Source of the DNA: a virus
Reading direction: 5' to 3' (one strand)
IMG/VR virus record: IMGVR_UViG_3300009551_000110
Coordinates: 1 to 26,865 of that record
Length of the DNA: 26,865 bases
Positions 3,095 through 26,443 of the stretch are shown piece by piece; position 1 is the first letter of the stretch; each line of letters opens with the position of its first letter. The notes under the pieces were generated by a model, which saw nothing but the letters and a program-made list of their open reading frames with translations, did not search any database and was not told the DNA's origin. Made by a program: the position numbers and the translations under genes.

Positions 3095-3309
3095 GAGCCT
3101 TTGATGAACTTATTATGCCCGACATGCCACGGGTTCTCTCGACATGTTCTGGCTATGCAGTAGTAAACGACCATTGGCAATCCATCTTTGAAATCCGGTT
3201 TATAATCCTTTGCCTTTTCCAGCCCTCGCAAGTGTGCTTCTGCCGCTCCGCGTGATCTGTGTCCGCGTTTGTGGCAGTGCTTTCCTATGCGTTCAATGGC
3301 TGGCATCAT
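3091..3309 (-). CDS. Small basic zinc-ribbon-like phage protein
   Basis: 72 residues, ATG at 3309 (ATGA overlap with the upstream gene). It resembles the frequent small phage/actinobacterial proteins with a GKxxxxSRxxAxxHLxxL helix followed by a YYC...C...W-H knuckle. Here these are HRSRGAAEAHLRGL and YYCIARTC...NPWHVGH. Basic and cytosolic. Function is not established for the family. Part of a coupled run of genes from 3662 to 2785. Confidence 0.6.
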   Translation of the reverse strand: MMPAIERIGKHCHKRGHRSRGAAEAHLRGLEKAKDYKPDFKDGLPMVVYYCIARTCRENPWHVGHNKFIKGS

Positions 3310-3662
3310 CTAGTGTCCATCCGCAAGCACCGTTTTGGTAACCACGTTAAGAATGCTCGCCTGTAACCCTCAGATCCATAGATAACCAAACACAAGTAAC
3401 GAGAGCCAACACGTTGAGCAATCCATATTTCATCATGCGGAAAGACTGCTCGTTGATAAGAACCGAGAGCAACGCACGGCATACCAAAGGTATCGCGTAA
3501 TCGGGCTGCTTTTAAGTCGTAACTCATTTGTGTAGCCATCTTGAAAGAGTTTGCGCGGGCATGTGATGCCCCATACTGTATGTGTCCGTATGCGACTGAG
3601 CTAGCCGCATCACTACCCAAGCCAGAAGCGTTACCGACTAGCTCGCCTTCGTGTTGGCTCAA
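3306..3662 (-). CDS. Hypothetical protein (start uncertain)
   Basis: 118 residues if it begins at the TTG at 3662; ATGs at 3539 (78 residues) or 3527 are alternatives. None has a convincing SD, so the start is undecided. The conserved-looking core is the C-terminal half, beta-rich with GMPCVALGSYQ and RYLCLVIYGSEGYRR. It ends in an ATGA overlap with the next gene, which supports it being expressed. Its upstream flank is the structured non-coding block 3719-3930. No domain recognised. Confidence 0.45.
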   Translation of the reverse strand: MSQHEGELVGNASGLGSDAASSVAYGHIQYGASHARANSFKMATQMSYDLKAARLRDTFGMPCVALGSYQRAVFPHDEIWIAQRVGSRYLCLVIYGSEGYRRAFLTWLPKRCLRMDTR

Positions 3663-3718
3663 ACGCTTTCGGTCTTATCCGCTGGCCTATCCCGACGATC
3701 ACCCGCGCAAACATTTGA

Positions 3719-3790
3719 TATACGGGACTTCTTCAAGGTCAATCCGATTGAACCTTCGCAAAGCGTTGCCGACAGTGCGAGTCCCGTATA
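3719..3790. ncRNA. Putative structured RNA element A (Y-shaped)
   Basis: An 11-bp perfect inverted repeat (TATACGGGACT at 3719-3729 with AGTCCCGTATA at 3780-3790) encloses two smaller helices. One is a hairpin at 3735-3756 (AAGGT+CAAT paired with ATTG+ACCTT, loop CCG, one bulged A). The other is TCGCA/TGCGA (3756-3760 with 3775-3779), which competes for base 3756. No gene occupies this interval. Strand, transcription and function are unknown. Confidence 0.5.
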
Positions 3791-3814
3791 AGTTGAAAAC
3801 CCCGTGAAATACCC

Positions 3815-3930
3815 TGCGCGGCGGACCCCGTTTTGGCGTCAAAGCGGTCGCGAACCGCTAGGCCCGACTCCTAGAAAGCCGTTGGATATCTGAGGACTGC
3901 TACGTCAATCTCCCTCAGCCCCGCCGCGCA
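3815..3930. ncRNA. Putative structured RNA element B (multi-helix junction)
   Basis: A 10-bp perfect closing helix (TGCGCGGCGG 3815-3824 with CCGCCGCGCA 3921-3930) surrounds three internal hairpins: AGCGG/CCGCT (3843-3847 with 3855-3859), CTAGG/CCTAG (3858-3862 with 3870-3874, 7-nt loop) and CTGAGG/CCTCAG (3890-3895 with 3913-3918). The overall plan is a cloverleaf of about 116 nt. It is not a tRNA: no T33, no acceptor CCA and no standard T-loop. It matches no RNA class I can name. Confidence 0.5.
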
Positions 3931-3956
3931 AGCCTTCAAATATCAGTTACAGTGAA

Positions 3957-4391
3957 TTACGCTGCTTCCTTAAACTCATGGAAGCCGGGCGTACTTGATA
4001 AATGATGAATGTTGTCGTCTGCCGATTTAACGCACTGCACACATGATCCAGACTGAATCTCTTGCGCCTTCTTCACACCCTCTGCGATGTTGCTCTTTAC
4101 GGCTTCAGGTAAAACCTTCTTAGCCCTAGACTTTCTTACCTGAAACTTGTGCCCGTGATCGTCGCCGCCGTGTATTGGATCACCTTCTGCCGCCCCGCAG
4201 ACTTCGCTATCTGTGAGCGGGAACTTACAAGGACGAACCTCCGCTTCGCTGGTGTTTGCCGGCGCAGGTTGAGATCCTTCTGCAAGTGGGACAAACTCAT
4301 CCAAGACGAGGTCTAACACGTCTTTGTTCTTTCGTAACTCTGTGATTAACTCTTTAGCGCGATTTTGGATTAGTGGGATTCTGCTTCTCAT
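3957..4391 (-). CDS. Phage protein with zinc-knuckle CKFP...CG...H...HxF
   Basis: 144 residues, ATG at 4391 with a GGAAGG SD. The N-terminal 35 residues form a charged helix. The middle holds a Cys/His motif: C54, C65, then DPIHGGDDHGHKF. This resembles the small zinc-binding stretch often seen in phage proteins as CxxP...CG...H.G..H.F. The C-terminal half is basic and helical with a C-x2-C pair (SCVQC) and two histidines near the end. The zinc ligands suggest a structural metal site. Role unknown; likely cytosolic. Confidence 0.6.
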   Translation of the reverse strand: MRSRIPLIQNRAKELITELRKNKDVLDLVLDEFVPLAEGSQPAPANTSEAEVRPCKFPLTDSEVCGAAEGDPIHGGDDHGHKFQVRKSRAKKVLPEAVKSNIAEGVKKAQEIQSGSCVQCVKSADDNIHHLSSTPGFHEFKEAA

Positions 4392-4757: not shown

Positions 4758-4890
4758 AACAAACCCCTCTCAGTTTTTAGAAAACAATGGGCGATGCAGT
4801 TCCCCCCAAACACCGCCCATCTCAAAATAACGTCTCAATGGTTTGTCACCGCCCCAAGACGCTATCAAGAGATCTATTCCTTTTCACGCG

Positions 4891-5385
4891 CTACTCATTA
4901 ACTACCAGTTTTGGTTTTGGCAACGATTTAACCGGAGCCAAATCAATTGCAAGATCGCGTTTTGCGTCACGCCCGGCTGTGACTAGCTTCGCCGCTACTG
5001 CTAATTGATGGTCATAGCGTTGTTGCCCTACTGCGTCCAGTCGTTCACGAGGCGTGATTGCTAATCTTCGGAACGCGCGTGATGTCTTGCAGATGCCATG
5101 CTTAATATTCCCCTCAGAAACTTTCAGACGATCCGCTGGGTTGAGAATCTTTACACCAACGCCCTGAATCCACTCACTATCAATGTTCCGTTCATTGCGT
5201 AGTCGTCGCCGCCAAGCGTTGATCACGCCATAGAAGCGTGGCGTCTTTTGTTCGACACGGATGGTTTTCTCGAATTCATCATGTGTGATGATCTGATCTT
5301 CTGTCGGACTCGGATACGCTTCTTCTAACTTGCGCACGTCCGGCCCGTAAGGGATGCCAGCCACAACTACAGGTAACTTAGACAA
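4891..5385 (-). CDS. Conserved phage protein, probable winged-helix-like DNA-binding
   Basis: 164 residues from a TTG at 5385, selected because AAGG lies exactly 7 nt upstream. The central segment ITHDEFEKTIRVEQKTPRFY...AWRRRLRNERNID...GVGVKIL matches a recurrent phage pattern (a helix-turn-helix-like module ending in a wing with GVGxxVL). The C-terminus is basic and helical (RAFRRLAITPRERLD). DNA binding is therefore an inference. It overlaps the end of the 5367-5519 mini-gene by 19 nt. Confidence 0.6.
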   Translation of the reverse strand: MSKLPVVVAGIPYGPDVRKLEEAYPSPTEDQIITHDEFEKTIRVEQKTPRFYGVINAWRRRLRNERNIDSEWIQGVGVKILNPADRLKVSEGNIKHGICKTSRAFRRLAITPRERLDAVGQQRYDHQLAVAAKLVTAGRDAKRDLAIDLAPVKSLPKPKLVVNE

Positions 5386-7328: not shown

Positions 7329-7341
7329 CAAAGGTTCAACC

Positions 7342-7446
7342 ATGAGCAGTAAATCACCAATAGCCATCCGCATCGGGCTCGCGGTCTTGTTCTTTGCTCT
7401 GTGGATCTTTGTGTTTCTATTTGGGTTGATGAGTGGGAGTAAATAA
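7342..7446 (+). CDS. 34-aa single-pass membrane peptide
   Basis: ATG at 7342, after AAAGG about 9 nt upstream. Residues 8-30 are almost entirely hydrophobic (GLAVLFFALWIFVFLFGLM) between a basic N-terminus and SGSK. It ends exactly where the GTG of the next gene begins. Function unknown; such peptides can be holin-like or membrane anchors. Confidence 0.5.
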   Translation: MSSKSPIAIRIGLAVLFFALWIFVFLFGLMSGSK

Positions 7447-7879: not shown

Positions 7880-8264
7880 ACCCTACCCCAACGCAATTTT
7901 AGGACGCTCAGAACGTAAAGCGGCTGAGATTAACTTAGATGATCGAGGGCAGCCCTTTGCCGGCGTGGCAACGATTAGAGCGGCTCTCTTTGACGTAATG
8001 GACCGATTTAACCCGCTCATCATGGATCGCAATCTCATTCCCGATAAAGTCAAATCAGAAGACCGAGAAAACTTTGAACGCTCTACATTTGTTGATGTCG
8101 TGATCGCTCGTATCGCTGAACTCCAACAGGCTCCGCACGACGGGATTAAGATTGAGAATCTCTGCGATAAACACAAGCGGGCAATCCTACCACTTCCAAC
8201 CGCAAGCGTATGCCCTGAATGCGCTATCGAGCGTCGCTCAACACGGAGGCCGAAGCAATCATGA
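7866..8264 (+). CDS. Hypothetical protein with C-terminal Cys/His knuckle
   Basis: 132 residues starting inside the end of the membrane-protein gene. The first 95 residues are mixed helix with no known motif. The C-terminus has CDKHKRAIL and CPEC, a likely treble-clef or ribbon zinc site, then a basic tail (RRSTRRPK). It stops in an ATGA overlap with the next gene. Role unknown. Confidence 0.55.
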   Translation: MTDDKPYPNAILGRSERKAAEINLDDRGQPFAGVATIRAALFDVMDRFNPLIMDRNLIPDKVKSEDRENFERSTFVDVVIARIAELQQAPHDGIKIENLCDKHKRAILPLPTASVCPECAIERRSTRRPKQS

Positions 8265-8479
8265 GTGAACGAATCAACCAACAGAACAGCCGAGACTACA
8301 CGGTCAACTTATCCATCAAAAGAGTGAGTAAGTTTGGGATCAAGTGGGAGCGTTTGGGTGAGTTTCGGTTCTGTGCGCTCGCCAACTCACATGAAGCCTC
8401 ATGTATTGCCGCTGGTAATGCAAAGGTTAAAAGTTCAGAAGAGTTCTATACGCAGGTGGTTAATGTGCTGCCATGCTAA
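8261..8479 (+). CDS. Small hypothetical protein
   Basis: 72 residues from the ATG at 8261 (ATGA overlap; GGAGG 12 nt upstream). It is predicted beta-rich at the start (YTVNLSIKRV) with KWERLGEFRF, then a helix containing HEASCIAAGNA. No clear metal site. Not recognised. Confidence 0.5.
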   Translation: MSERINQQNSRDYTVNLSIKRVSKFGIKWERLGEFRFCALANSHEASCIAAGNAKVKSSEEFYTQVVNVLPC

Positions 8480-8491
8480 TTGGAGGGAAAG

Positions 8492-8812
8492 ATGGACCAA
8501 CGAATTAAGGAACTTTGGGTTGAGGCGTTGCGAAGTGGAAAGTATAGGCAGTGCCAGTCTCGGCTCAAGATGTTCGGCGATGATGCTAAGCCATATCACT
8601 GTTGCCTTGGTGTGCTTGAAGAACTGGCCATGAGTGAGGGGGTGATTACTGGTTATGATCCGGCAGGTCTAGTACTTGATACAGCAACCAAGCAGTGGGC
8701 CGGGCTGGATGACACTGACCCGCGCATAAACAACGGTAGTACCTTGACCGCGTTAAATGACCGCGGAAACAGTTTTAGTTTCATCGCAAATAAAATTGAG
8801 CGGTACCTCTGA
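8492..8812 (+). CDS. Conserved phage protein (WVEALRSGKYxQ family, unknown function)
   Basis: 106 residues, ATG at 8492 just behind GGAGGGAAAG. It matches a family very common in phages: LWVEALRSGKYRQ at the start, YHCCLGVLEEL near residues 34-45, a central LVLDTATKQWAGL, and LNDRGNSFSFIANKIE at the end. No activity has been established that I know of. The double cysteine in CCLGVL is characteristic. Confidence 0.75.
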   Translation: MDQRIKELWVEALRSGKYRQCQSRLKMFGDDAKPYHCCLGVLEELAMSEGVITGYDPAGLVLDTATKQWAGLDDTDPRINNGSTLTALNDRGNSFSFIANKIERYL

Positions 8813-14026: not shown

Positions 14027-14371
14027 CTTGCGGTATCGGGAACGCCGCTGAGCCAAGAGGTAAACATGCTAGGCGTGACACCTCGGAGAGACGAGGCATT
14101 TGAAAAACAATGAAGCAGACACGACAAAGCCGCTAAATCCATTAAGGAAGTGACAGGAATAGTTCTTTGAATGATTTTGCAGATGGCTTATACTGCAACT
14201 GCTTTTTGATATCTCAGATTTGACGCGCCGTTGGCCCGGCGTTATGATTTCCACCGAGCGGCTTTTCACAGCCGCGTTTCGCAACGACTTCTATCCTTCG
14301 GTGGAGGGACAAGCAAGGCGGGCCAAACGCGAGCGCGGCGGTGAAAGGCCGTTTTTGTTTCTACTCTCAAG
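14027..14371 (+). other. 345-nt non-coding leader of the replication gene
   Basis: No gene of normal size. The interval holds a CCTCG/CGAGG hairpin (14081-14096), very short coupled reading frames (14066-14113, 14110-14136, 14170-14208), the multi-helix element 14224-14331, and a weak CGGC/GCCG stem followed by TTTTTGTTT (about 14337-14360). It resembles a regulatory leader rather than empty spacer. Confidence 0.5.
14224..14331 (+). ncRNA. Putative structured RNA leader with nested three-way junction
   Basis: Outer helix: CGCG+TTGGCCCG (14224-14227, 14231-14238) with CGGGCCAA+CGCG (14319-14326, 14328-14331). Middle helix: CCACCGA (14251-14257) with TCGGTGG (14298-14304), a perfect 7 bp. It encloses two hairpins side by side: GCGGCT/AGCCGC (14258-14275, 6-nt loop) and CGTT/AACG (14275-14286, TCGC loop). 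It ends 41 nt before an ATG with no SD, consistent with a cis-regulatory role, or it may be part of an origin. Confidence 0.5.
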
Positions 14372-15142
14372 ATGTCAATCAAATTGATGCAGATGGTGTG
14401 GGACAGTGCGCCCTGCCGTGAGAACCCTCTTCTTGTTTTGCTAGCTCTTGCTGATTGGTCCAATGAGGCCGGTATTTGCTGGCCATCAATAAACAGGTTG
14501 GCGCATAAGACACGTGTTGACCGACGTAGCGCCCAAAGGATCATCCGCAAGTTGATTAAAGACGGCCTGATATCGATTGAGGAAGGCGGCGGGAGAGCTA
14601 AGCAGCATAAGTATAAAATAGAAACGGCGGCGTTGTGTCGCCCTTTAGAAAACAGCGGCGCTGGAGACATAGAAACGGCGGCGTTGGAGACAGAAAGGGC
14701 GACTTTCCCTGCACAAAGGGTGACACCAGTGTCGCCCGATCCGTTAGAAGAACCGTTATTAAAGCAACCGTCAATAGATCCGCCATATGGTGGTGCAGAC
14801 TTTTTAAGCGCTTTGTCAGCCTTCGAGAGACAGCGGACGGCAATGAAGAAACCGCTTACTAACGAGGCGCTAAGGTTTTTGTATCGGAAACTGTCAGGAT
14901 GGGACGAGCCAACCGCAACACAGGCGCTCGAAGACGCGGTAATTAATCGATGGCAAGGGGTATTTGAACCAAGAGAGGAAAGACAGAATGGATCGGGTCA
15001 ATCCAGACCAAATCAGACGGCTTCTGAACGAAGAAACGCCGAGGTCATCAGAATCCAACAACGTGCAGCCGAGCTACGCAGCCTCGGTGATGAACGAATT
15101 GAATCGATACTTCGCCGGGAACCCGGCTCGTCCGGTCGGTGA
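14372..15142 (+). CDS. O-like phage replication initiator (winged HTH)
   Basis: 256 residues. The N-terminal domain matches helix-turn-helix replication proteins: VLLALADWSN, then PSINRLAHKTRVDRRSAQRI and KLIKDGLISIEEGGGR (38-74). The middle is a low-complexity linker containing IETAAL twice (83-88, 100-105); the DNA there carries repeat units that may be origin iterons. A C-terminal helical domain (LRFLYRKLSGWD...) probably recruits helicase or loader. No SD precedes the ATG, and the structured leader may control it. The 3' 155 nt overlap the next gene in another frame. Confidence 0.75.
   Translation: MSIKLMQMVWDSAPCRENPLLVLLALADWSNEAGICWPSINRLAHKTRVDRRSAQRIIRKLIKDGLISIEEGGGRAKQHKYKIETAALCRPLENSGAGDIETAALETERATFPAQRVTPVSPDPLEEPLLKQPSIDPPYGGADFLSALSAFERQRTAMKKPLTNEALRFLYRKLSGWDEPTATQALEDAVINRWQGVFEPREERQNGSGQSRPNQTASERRNAEVIRIQQRAAELRSLGDERIESILRREPGSSGR
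14618..14735 (+). repeat. Iteron-like repeats inside the initiator gene (candidate origin)
   Basis: An exact 18-bp repeat lies at 14618-14635 and 14669-14686. A second unit GCGGCG[CT]TGGAGACA occurs at 14655-14669 and 14678-14692. Four AGAAA-started units begin at 14620, 14647, 14671 and 14692. An imperfect dyad GGGTGACAC/GTGTCGCCC follows near 14718-14737. Repeats within the initiator's linker, as in lambdoid O genes, suggest ori. Spacing is 27, 24 and 21 bp. Confidence 0.5.
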
Positions 15143-16827: not shown

Positions 16828-16995
16828 ATGGAAACTCATTTAGTCTGTGACACTCAACCTCTTTGTCTCTGTCTCGGTGATGACACTGATAAATTCTCAA
16901 AGTACGAATGCGAATGTACTGGAAACATCGTAGGCTTCAGCAAAGAGAAGTGTGAGAACTGCGGAGCGCCAATGGTGGAGACGGTAGACGAATGA
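16828..16995 (+). CDS. Small Cys-rich zinc protein
   Basis: 55 residues, ATG at 16828 with GGGGAGAG upstream. Eight cysteines: LVCDTQPLCLCLG, ECECTG and CENCGAP. The spacing suggests one or two structural zinc sites, and it is acidic otherwise. ATGA overlap with the methyltransferase gene. Not recognised. Confidence 0.55.
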   Translation: METHLVCDTQPLCLCLGDDTDKFSKYECECTGNIVGFSKEKCENCGAPMVETVDE

Positions 16996-17821
16996 AGCCG
17001 TATTACGAGTCTGATGGAATTACGTTGTACTTGGGAGATTGCCGCTCAGTGTTGCCGACTCTCGAGCGCGTCGACGTCATCATCACCGATCCGCCTTACT
17101 CTGATTACGTTCACTCGAAGTCGCGACGTGGTGGCGCAAGTGCGCCGAAGTTAGACGGAAGCGGGCGCAATGTAGCGTGCTCATTCGCACGAGAAAAGGA
17201 ATTCGGATTCGAATCGCTATCAGCCAAGCTGAGGGCATTCTGTGCTCAAGAGTTTGCGCGGTTAGCGCGTCGCTGGGTGCTGGCGTTTTCAGACGTTGAG
17301 AGTTGTCATCTATGGCGTGATGATGTGGTTGAGTGCGGACTCGAGTACGTCCGAACGGGCGCATGGGTGAAGATTGGCGCGACGCCACAATTTACCGGCG
17401 ATAGACCGGCGCAAGGGTTTGAAGCAATAACGATCGCGCATCCCAAGGGCCGCAAGCATTGGAATGGCGGCGGGCGTCACGCGATCTGGCGCGAAGCTGA
17501 AGAGCGCGATCTTGTCTATGAAGTACCAATAGTTCTGAATCGCAGTCACACCGATCCCCGACTGCACACAACACAAAAGCCATTGCCGCTCATGCTTGAT
17601 CTCGTGGGCGACTTCTCAGACGAAGGCGACACGATCCTCGATCCGTTTGCGGGCTCAGGAACGACACTTGTTGCGGCGAAAAATTAGGCCGCAAAGCAAT
17701 CGGTATTGAGCTTGACGAGGTTAATTGCGAGGTAGCCGCAAGGCGTCTCGAGCGCGAGTCGGCACAGACTTCACTTGAATTCAAAGCAACACAGGAAGGG
17801 CTCTTCGCAAATGCCGGATGA
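16992..17821 (+). CDS. DNA methyltransferase (DPPY type), interrupted by a one-base frameshift
   Basis: The first frame gives 231 residues: LYLGDCRSVLP (12-22), the catalytic ITDPPYSDY (31-39), a central TPQFTGDRPAQGFE, HTTQKPLPLMLDLV, and the SAM-binding DPFAGSGTT at the end. Motif order (DPPY before DPFAGSGTT) is that of beta-class N6-adenine/N4-cytosine methylases. It stops at a TAG (17685-17687), but the -1 frame continues with LGRKAIGIELDEVNCEVAARRLE, the normal family C-terminus, to 17821. One base appears missing at the A5 run 17679-17683. It may protect phage DNA from host restriction. Confidence 0.85.
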
Positions 17822-17954: not shown

Positions 17955-18151
17955 AAAGGTATCTACTAGTAATTTCGCCACAACGTTACCCGACACACAC
18001 GGGTGAACGCCCATTATCGTTTGCGATCTGGCTCATTCGACCGTGGCGGCGCAAACAGATAGTTGCCTATTCTTGGAGTCTCGAGAGAGCGTGGTTGGCC
18101 CCCCTTCAGTTCATCAAGCAGAGCACGAGGAAGGCACGGAGGACAGGATGA
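17951..18151 (+). CDS. Small basic protein with amphipathic N-terminus
   Basis: 66 residues, ATGA-coupled on both sides. It starts MKRYLLVISPQRYPTHT, then LSFAIWLIRPWRRKQI and a basic C-terminus (KQSTRKARRTG). Weakly hydrophobic with many Arg/Trp residues; it may associate with membranes or nucleic acid. Not recognised. Confidence 0.45.
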   Translation: MKRYLLVISPQRYPTHTGERPLSFAIWLIRPWRRKQIVAYSWSLERAWLAPLQFIKQSTRKARRTG

Positions 18152-18732
18152 GCGCGGTTGAGCAGATTGAATACGTGAGCGTAGAGCGTGCTATCCCGAT
18201 GCGGCGTGTTTGGGCGATGCCGGATAGCTGCACGTTTAACATTCCCCCAATTCGCTCATTGGTTAGATCCTATCTCCACAAAGCAACGGTCAGCGTTGAT
18301 CCATTTGCCCGAAACAAACAATGGGCTACGTACACGAACGATTTGAATCCAGAAACCGCTGCTGAATACCACGTAGACGCAGGAGACTTTCTGCAAACGC
18401 TAGTAGGGCGAGAAGTAAAGGCGGATCTGGTGATCTTCGATCCGCCCTATTCGCTCCACCAAGCAAAGGAGTGTTACGCCGATGTGGGCCGCAAGTTCAT
18501 GATGGCCGATGCGCAAAATGTAGGTAGGTGGACTCGCGAGCGCGAATTGATTGCGCGTCTCTGTAGACCTGGCGGGATTGTAATTACATGCGGATGGAAC
18601 TCTCAAGGCGTGGGATTGCAGCACGATTTCGAGCAAGTCGAAATCTTACTCGTATGCCACGGCGGGGCGCATAACGACACCATCGTCACAGTCGAGCGAA
18701 AGATAGAAAGCAAGCAAATCAGCCTACTATGA
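18148..18732 (+). CDS. Phage adenine-methyltransferase-like protein
   Basis: 194 residues, ATG at 18148 (ATGA overlap). It carries DPFARN (51-56) as motif I and FDPPYS (97-102) as the catalytic motif. It ends with CGWNSQGVG and the family ending ILLVCHGGAHNDTIVTVERK. Phage proteins of this type are annotated as small adenine DNA methylases; true activity has rarely been tested. It differs from the methylase at 16992 and precedes the NinG gene, which it overlaps. Confidence 0.8.
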   Translation: MSAVEQIEYVSVERAIPMRRVWAMPDSCTFNIPPIRSLVRSYLHKATVSVDPFARNKQWATYTNDLNPETAAEYHVDAGDFLQTLVGREVKADLVIFDPPYSLHQAKECYADVGRKFMMADAQNVGRWTRERELIARLCRPGGIVITCGWNSQGVGLQHDFEQVEILLVCHGGAHNDTIVTVERKIESKQISLL

Positions 18733-25707: not shown

Positions 25708-26379
25708 ATGAGACAAGTCCACAACGTAGAGCACCAAGGCACGCTGATAGAATTCCTTAACAAGTGCCTCAAAGCTTACGAGGAGCGCACCAAAGCACTG
25801 AAAGGTACGCCGCCAATAGGCGAGACATCGATCGCGCAGAAGTTAGAGGCAATTATTGACATGCTGAAACCTCTCGGCTCTGTACCGGGTGACCTCGGAT
25901 TCGCAAGAGAGGAAATCAGTTTAATTCACGGGTTGCTTGCCAACCCTCCACAACCAGAACTAGAACCCTTCACCCCGTTTCGCATAGAGCCGGATTCAGG
26001 GTTCGTTGAAATAGGAGACATTGAATCCATGCAGATAACAGACACACAGCAGTTCAAGATTACTTTTCCGGCTCCAGTTGATAAGAAAGGGTTTCCCGCC
26101 AAGGTGCAGGATGGCTCAGTTTCTATAACGGTAGGCAACGATACCGCGACGGTAGAACCTAACCCTGATGATCCTTCGAACGTGTTCAGCGCGTTAGTTA
26201 AAGGCAACCGCCCCGGCGCTGACGATGGCTCAGAGGTCACGGCGGTGTCTATCAGTGCTGATGCTGACCTTGGCGAGGGCGTCAAGACCATTAGCAAGGC
26301 AGTTGAGCTCATGGTGACAAGCGGTGAAGCCACAGGATTTGGTGAACCCACTGTAAGCACTCCTGAGGAGCAGGCGTAA
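25708..26379 (+). CDS. Ig-like domain protein (start uncertain)
   Basis: 223 residues from the ATG at 25708; a GTG at 25669 gives 236, and a one-base change would extend it to the ATG at 25653. The first ~75 residues are helical (FLNKCLKAYEERTKAL); the rest is an Ig-like beta-sandwich (FRIEPDSGFVEIGDIESMQI ... VSISADADLGEG ... VELMVTSG), the kind of domain often decorating virions or tails. The acidic Thr/Glu-rich end may be flexible. It may be a structural or head-decoration protein, by inference. Confidence 0.6.
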   Translation: MRQVHNVEHQGTLIEFLNKCLKAYEERTKALKGTPPIGETSIAQKLEAIIDMLKPLGSVPGDLGFAREEISLIHGLLANPPQPELEPFTPFRIEPDSGFVEIGDIESMQITDTQQFKITFPAPVDKKGFPAKVQDGSVSITVGNDTATVEPNPDDPSNVFSALVKGNRPGADDGSEVTAVSISADADLGEGVKTISKAVELMVTSGEATGFGEPTVSTPEEQA

Positions 26380-26384
26380 TTACT

Positions 26385-26443
26385 TTTCGCCCTTCGGCTA
26401 TTGGGGGAAACTTGTTTGGTAAGGCGATGGCTGGAGGGCGAAA
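26385..26443 (+). terminator. 9-bp inverted repeat between genes (hairpin; terminator or regulatory)
   Basis: TTTCGCCCT (26385-26393) and AGGGCGAAA (26435-26443) are perfect complements around a 41-nt interior with an AAAC/GTTT inner stem. There is no T-run after it, so a rho-independent terminator is not clear; it could be an RNA leader for the secreted protein at 26470. Confidence 0.35.

Follow-up and report, generated by a model that had tools for sequence, protein, structure and literature searches.

The noncoding gap at positions 3540-3956 of the window, by which we mean the whole 26,865-nt stretch of the virus record analysed here, very probably harbours a genuine structured RNA of ~380 nt that has not been named to date. 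Element B, the cloverleaf described in an earlier note, is the outer part of this RNA, and the other end carries a near-identical 33-nt core. We consider it fairly probable that this is a multidomain structured noncoding RNA of phages, co-transcribed with the leftward early operon, in which domain C would be the functional unit and domains B and A′ lineage-specific accessories. The observations behind this reading are the following: (I) closed domains lie in tandem in the gap; (II) the core is kept across three lineages; (III) helix P3, which surrounds the core, covaries; (IV) helix P1, which encloses it, is replaced from lineage to lineage; and (V) the element runs in the same direction as the genes.

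The window contains replication and recombination genes (O-like, Erf-like, YqaJ/RecE-like, NinG and RusA), and the gap (415-417 nt) sits in a leftward operon of small genes, between two minus-strand genes as the earlier note had stated. It is filled from end to end by three closed domains (Table 1). In total, five inverted repeats of at least 10 bp with a span of 40-200 nt were observed in the window, versus 2.7 expected at its composition, and three of the five sit head to tail in the gap as the closing helices of these domains. Only 0.03 closing repeats are expected there and three were reached in 0 of 3000 randomisations; the cluster is far beyond chance. When the folds were matched to boundaries picked from the closing helices themselves, domain A′ (z −4.04) and domain C (z −3.40) were each equalled in stability by 0 of 200 shuffles, and the whole region (z −2.4) by 1 of 100. 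A fixed-step 120-nt z-scan of the window did not single out the gap region, probably because the scanned pieces mismatch the domain boundaries. The strongest piece in that scan, starting at 26341 (z −4.5), contains a very stable hairpin at 26385-26443 on the plus strand, with arms TTTCGCCCTTCGGCTATT.../...GATGGCTGGAGGGCGAAA.

Table 1. Coordinates of the structured region, its parts and the neighbouring genes in the window.
Feature	Position	Strand	Remarks
Whole structured RNA region	3549..3930	−	in the order B, A′, C from the 5′ end; three tandem closing helices of 10-11 bp, all perfect
Domain B (first-described element)	3815..3930	−	10-bp closing helix and internal hairpins
Domain A′	3719..3790	−	72 nt; 11-bp closing helix, two internal hairpins
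Domain C, conserved domain	3549..3712	−	homologues in L008/L009/L130/L132 and L134
P1 5′ strand GUUUGCGCGGG	3702..3712	−	11 bp with 3549-3559
P1 3′ strand CCCGCGCAAAC	3549..3559	−	ends 9 nt ahead of the next ATG
Conserved motif UCGUCGGG	3691..3698	−	all three lineages
Conserved UUGGGUAG (UGGGYRG)	3613..3620	−	directly ahead of P3; from alignment
P3 5′ strand GUGAUGC	3607..3613	−	covariation
P3 3′ strand GCAUCAC	3563..3569	−	covariation
Core AGCUCAGUCGCAUACGGACACAUACAGUAUGGGG	3569..3602	−	includes hairpin P4, CAUAC 3588-3592 / GUAUG 3572-3576
P5 5′ strand GAGCUAG, possible pseudoknot	3638..3644	−	partner CUAGCUC 3598-3604
Upstream gene	3957..4391	−	144 aa; relatives L002-L005 84-85% identical, without the RNA
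Downstream gene	3306..3539	−	77 aa from ATG 3539; TTG 3662 start judged wrong

Domain B has the closing helix and internal hairpins that had been claimed for it. A perfect inverted repeat (10/10 bp; TGCGCGGCGG at 3815-3824 and CCGCCGCGCA at 3921-3930) coincides exactly with its ends, and the hairpins are predicted on either strand, with an MFE of −46.1 kcal/mol on the plus and −51.8 kcal/mol on the minus strand. Taken alone, its stability is just modestly above chance: against 200 dinucleotide shuffles, z is −1.99 (+) and −1.92 (−), with 9/200 and 6/200 shuffles equally stable, respectively. Two arms of the minus strand can be sketched with stems of 5 bp and loops of 7 nt, but the tRNA-like cloverleaf proposed earlier is unsupported, given that the element lacks a T-loop consensus, has a 10-bp closing helix that is separated from the T-like arm by an extra segment, is negative in ARAGORN, and matches nothing in Rfam at E <= 10. 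Its closing-helix frame (GCGCGGCGG..CCGCCGCGC) is common elsewhere, with at least 120 stretches found in an IMG/VR pattern scan. These were taken as chance frames; among the matches listed, BLAST showed neither a B-like interior nor an alignment with the gap. No homologue of domain B was detected by BLAST against isolate phages either, and none was found for domain A′. As domain B has no detectable homologue, it may be a lineage-specific accessory; since both domains are without homologues, it is their adjacency that suggests they belong to the same RNA. We regard domain B as a real predicted fold that would serve as an accessory 5′ domain of a trans-acting RNA. It should also be noted that the closing helices of B and C (3549-3559/3702-3712) have TTGCGCGG/CCGCGCAA in common, and that an alternative nested fold is possible, in which the 5′ strand of B pairs with the 3′ strand of C and the 3′ strand of B with the 5′ strand of C.

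The proposal of an undescribed structured RNA is supported by comparative evidence on the neighbouring domain C, not by element B itself; the conserved part lies outside 3815-3930. Besides the window, IMG/VR holds two further phage lineages with the domain C core. The first (L008/L009; phages of 75-93 kb), which surfaced through a protein-pattern search using a wrongly extended ORF, has 34 nt identical to window positions 3569-3602. The second (L134; 28.8 kb), found by a pattern scan of IMG/VR, has the same core plus a single inserted A, located in a loop. Additional IMG/VR pattern scans added no further lineages. No orthologous proteins were detected between any two of the window, L008 and L134 in the stretches compared. 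What the protein comparison did yield was limited to frames that run over the core and two local matches to L008, both marginal; hence, the core is common to the three lineages and the remaining compared sequence is not. At all three loci, the RNA starts 1-27 nt after the upstream stop, on the same strand as the genes, and the next ATG follows after 9 nt (window), ~68 nt (L008) or ~28 nt (L134). A model built from the three members gives them scores of 82-89 bits, which are high by construction, while nothing else in 0.7 Mb scores above 16. Other candidates were rejected. L136-L141, which carry the core pattern with a free P4 stem, look protein-coding, and their matches presumably represent a metallophosphatase-type GHTH motif; L131, L133 and L135 have just the 17-nt pattern in common; L142 and L143 match the pattern without the flanking motifs, with a model score of 15.9 bits for L142 and none at E <= 5 for L143. 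Separately, the second gene upstream of the L008 homologue (4798-5253) encodes a Macro-domain-like protein that matches DarG (PADLOC E 8e-15). DarG is the antitoxin of a DNA ADP-ribosylation system.

The structural comparison rests on only three independent members, in which P3, the 7-bp helix around the core, is 100% paired, with standard pairs in 21 of 21 pair cells and both sides changed in five of its seven pairs (GUGAUGC/GCAUCAC in the window; GUAUAAC/GUUAUAC and GCAUGAU/GUCAUGC in the others). One G-U pair is kept. The covariation score of P3 and P4 combined is 0.667; shuffles give 0.29 (1/500), and sliding the helices gives no more than 0.167. P4 itself, a putative hairpin, shows zero variation in the three lineages, as does most of the core. 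P1 consists of 11, 9 and 13 Watson-Crick bp in the window, L008 and L134, respectively, with sequences unrelated between lineages; helices of these lengths arise in 0%, 2.3% and 0% of randomised flanks. The stretch between P1 and P3 repeatedly contains both UCGUCGGG, which all three lineages have, and UGGGYRG. A near-invariant 33-nt core inside a covarying 7-bp P3 is found in 3/3 lineages, and P1 encloses the core together with both motifs. P5 comprises 7 Watson-Crick bp in the window and recurs in L134 as GAGCUGA/UCAGCUC with two compensated changes (consensus GAGCURR with YYAGCUC), while no such pairing was found in L008; it would either form a pseudoknot with P3 or take the place of other pairings. 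The unconstrained MFE structure excludes P3 in the window (by 3.1 kcal/mol) and in L134 (by 2.2 kcal/mol), and that of L008 includes both P1 and P3.

At all three loci, one and the same reading frame runs open across the core; it reads SSVAYGHIQYG in the window and L008, which raises the question of whether the core is a peptide motif of a small protein. However, every third codon position is identical between these two, L134 has its +1 insertion inside the motif with the nucleotides on both sides unchanged, and the flanking letters covary as helix P3. Given that the inserted A shifts the frame while the adjacent letters stay identical, conservation is at the level of RNA and not of protein; wobble identity, frameshift and covarying flanks together argue for nucleotide-level selection. 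Between them, the frameshift and the covariation already leave little of the coding explanation, and we give it almost no credence.

The closest relatives of the upstream gene are in L002-L005. No counterpart of the gap was found there, and the L002 homologue of the 144-aa gene is followed by another gene only ~27 nt past its stop. Therefore, having the RNA region at this position is particular to the lineage of the window. The possibility of an intron in the upstream gene was rejected, the gene being full length with the same end as in L002. On the other side, the called ORF 3306-3662 (TTG start) overlaps domain C, and ATG 3539 is the preferred start because the core of a relative accommodates an insertion that breaks the frame. 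The downstream gene from this ATG has no padloc match; for the longer ORF, Pfam gave no match and PHROG none that was significant. Three flanking proteins had zero tblastn matches in isolate phages. Elsewhere in the window, 1735-1874, 7337-7431 and 8254-8495 are 94-99% identical to L002/L003, phages that are otherwise diverged, in a mosaic pattern. The adjacent plus-strand ORFs 16992-17687 and 18043-18732 match parts of DNA methyltransferase families (phrog_67 and phrog_11619) and are perhaps a split or broken gene. Within the O-like gene (14372-15142), a 22-23-nt repeat (~2.4 copies) and an inverted repeat of 10 bp occur at 14637-14703 (+), reminiscent of the iterons in lambda-type origins. 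Just upstream of the start of this gene, at 14126-14340, lies an inverted repeat with a fold that is very stable on both strands (z −3.7 on the plus strand).

The element might act as single-stranded DNA instead, as a folded site for replication, nicking, primase loading or packaging. Covariation shows single-strand pairing only and not RNA as such, the closing inverted repeats are perfect, and the gene after the 144-aa gene in L002-L005 looks like one for a terminase small subunit, which is our assumption from its resemblance. Nevertheless, the element is on the strand of the transcribed genes in 3/3 loci and keeps a G-U pair in P3, and the replication genes differ between the phages, being O-like in the window, DnaB/primase in the phage of L008 and O/DnaD-like in that of L134. 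RNA is favoured because of the coding strand and the position right after the upstream stop in all three loci, and we judge the DNA explanation to be improbable.

If the element is an RNA, it could be cis-acting, i.e. a riboswitch, a leader of the ribosomal-protein type or a translation switch, whose core senses a ligand or protein and in which exchange between P1/P3 and P5 controls the start codon 9 nt downstream. The 3′ strand of P1 indeed ends 9 nt ahead of ATG 3539, and the pairings of the GCUC strand (with P5 or with UGGGY) are mutually exclusive, as in a switch. An invariant core with covarying flanking stems, as seen here, is typical of aptamers. However, the genes downstream are unrelated across the three phages, the distance to the next ATG varies, and no intrinsic terminator was found near the gap, so that we hold cis action to be unlikely. 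Because neither the upstream nor the downstream genes are conserved among the three phages, a trans-acting structured noncoding RNA seems the most likely from the sequences at hand; possible alternatives are, in this order, a cis-regulatory aptamer, a single-stranded DNA element and a ribozyme. For the last of these, in which the invariant 33 nt would form the catalytic core of a self-cleaving or other ribozyme, one can point to the core, which is invariant, sits at a helical junction where a pseudoknot is possible, and recurs in unrelated phages. Known small ribozymes likewise recur in unrelated phages. Yet there were zero matches to Rfam ribozymes even at E <= 10, and a cleavage site cannot be told from the sequence; a ribozyme appears quite improbable to us.

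The Rfam scan proposed earlier as a check of novelty gave zero matches. Against Rfam 15 (4227 models), neither the window nor L008 matched at the gathering threshold, nothing was found for the gap or L008 even at E <= 10, and L134 gave just sub-threshold snoRNA/lncRNA chance matches far below gathering. ARAGORN found 0 tRNA or tmRNA genes in the window, L008, L130, L151 and L152. Searches of isolate phages gave no DNA match to the gap or the core, nor to the window at the megablast level. When domain C and the L008 region were compared with phages by BLAST, the only matches had E of 3-7 and were judged to be chance, and plasmids gave zero core matches. In ~85,000 species-level prokaryote genomes, a 21-base core pattern had 0 matches and a 19-base pattern one (L143), which was judged to be chance. 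The core was not found printed in the literature searched.

Two large phage RNAs invite comparison. GOLLD is a large, ornate noncoding RNA of phages and prophages with a conserved 3′ region and a less conserved 5′ part, and its members are often >800 nt and often close to tRNA islands; ROOL is an intricately folded phage RNA with pseudoknots (659 nt in ROOL env-120). The function of both is unknown, and both are in Rfam (PMC12286853). The window RNA resembles them in its conserved 3′ part, its variable 5′ part and its intergenic location in phages. It differs from GOLLD in its length (~380 nt or less), in having no Rfam match and in having no tRNAs nearby, and from ROOL in lacking both an Rfam match and a tRNA island. 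No GOLLD or ROOL model matched the window, the gap, L008 or L134 in Rfam, and the tRNA neighbourhood that is frequent, but not universal, for these RNAs is absent, as neither the 26.9-kb window nor the 12-19 kb around the homologues contains a tRNA. A homo-oligomeric RNA cage is another trait by which GOLLD and ROOL are recognised. By analogy, the window RNA would be architecturally most like GOLLD and ROOL, yet it is neither.

Taken together, our results suggest an RNA that would be transcribed as part of a leftward early phage operon. In domain C, P1 would enclose the junction strands (UCGUCGGG and UGGGYRG) and the covarying hairpin P3, which would present the near-invariant core; the 5′ domains B and A′ would be lineage-specific accessories. 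Acting in trans, the RNA could dock a protein of either the host or the phage, an RNA or a small ligand through its core, and recognition of a conserved partner is favoured because the core is rigid inside replaceable helices. We raise more tentatively the prospect of a wholly undescribed class of phage RNA, with a compact pseudoknotted domain whose invariant 33-nt core is catalytic or binds a ligand or protein, exchanged between unrelated phages and fitted with lineage-specific 5′ domains (B and A′); this may be a new ribozyme or host-takeover RNA.

To our knowledge, few RNA families have an equally rigid 33-nt core amid fully replaced surroundings, closing helices included. Such a core marks a site of molecular recognition or catalysis. 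It is common to unrelated phages, yet nothing matching it is present in Rfam, in isolate phages or in plasmids, nor, by pattern, in species-level prokaryote genomes. Three sequences already yield a testable structure, comprising P1, P3, P4 and possibly P5, and the function of this RNA is thus directly approachable.
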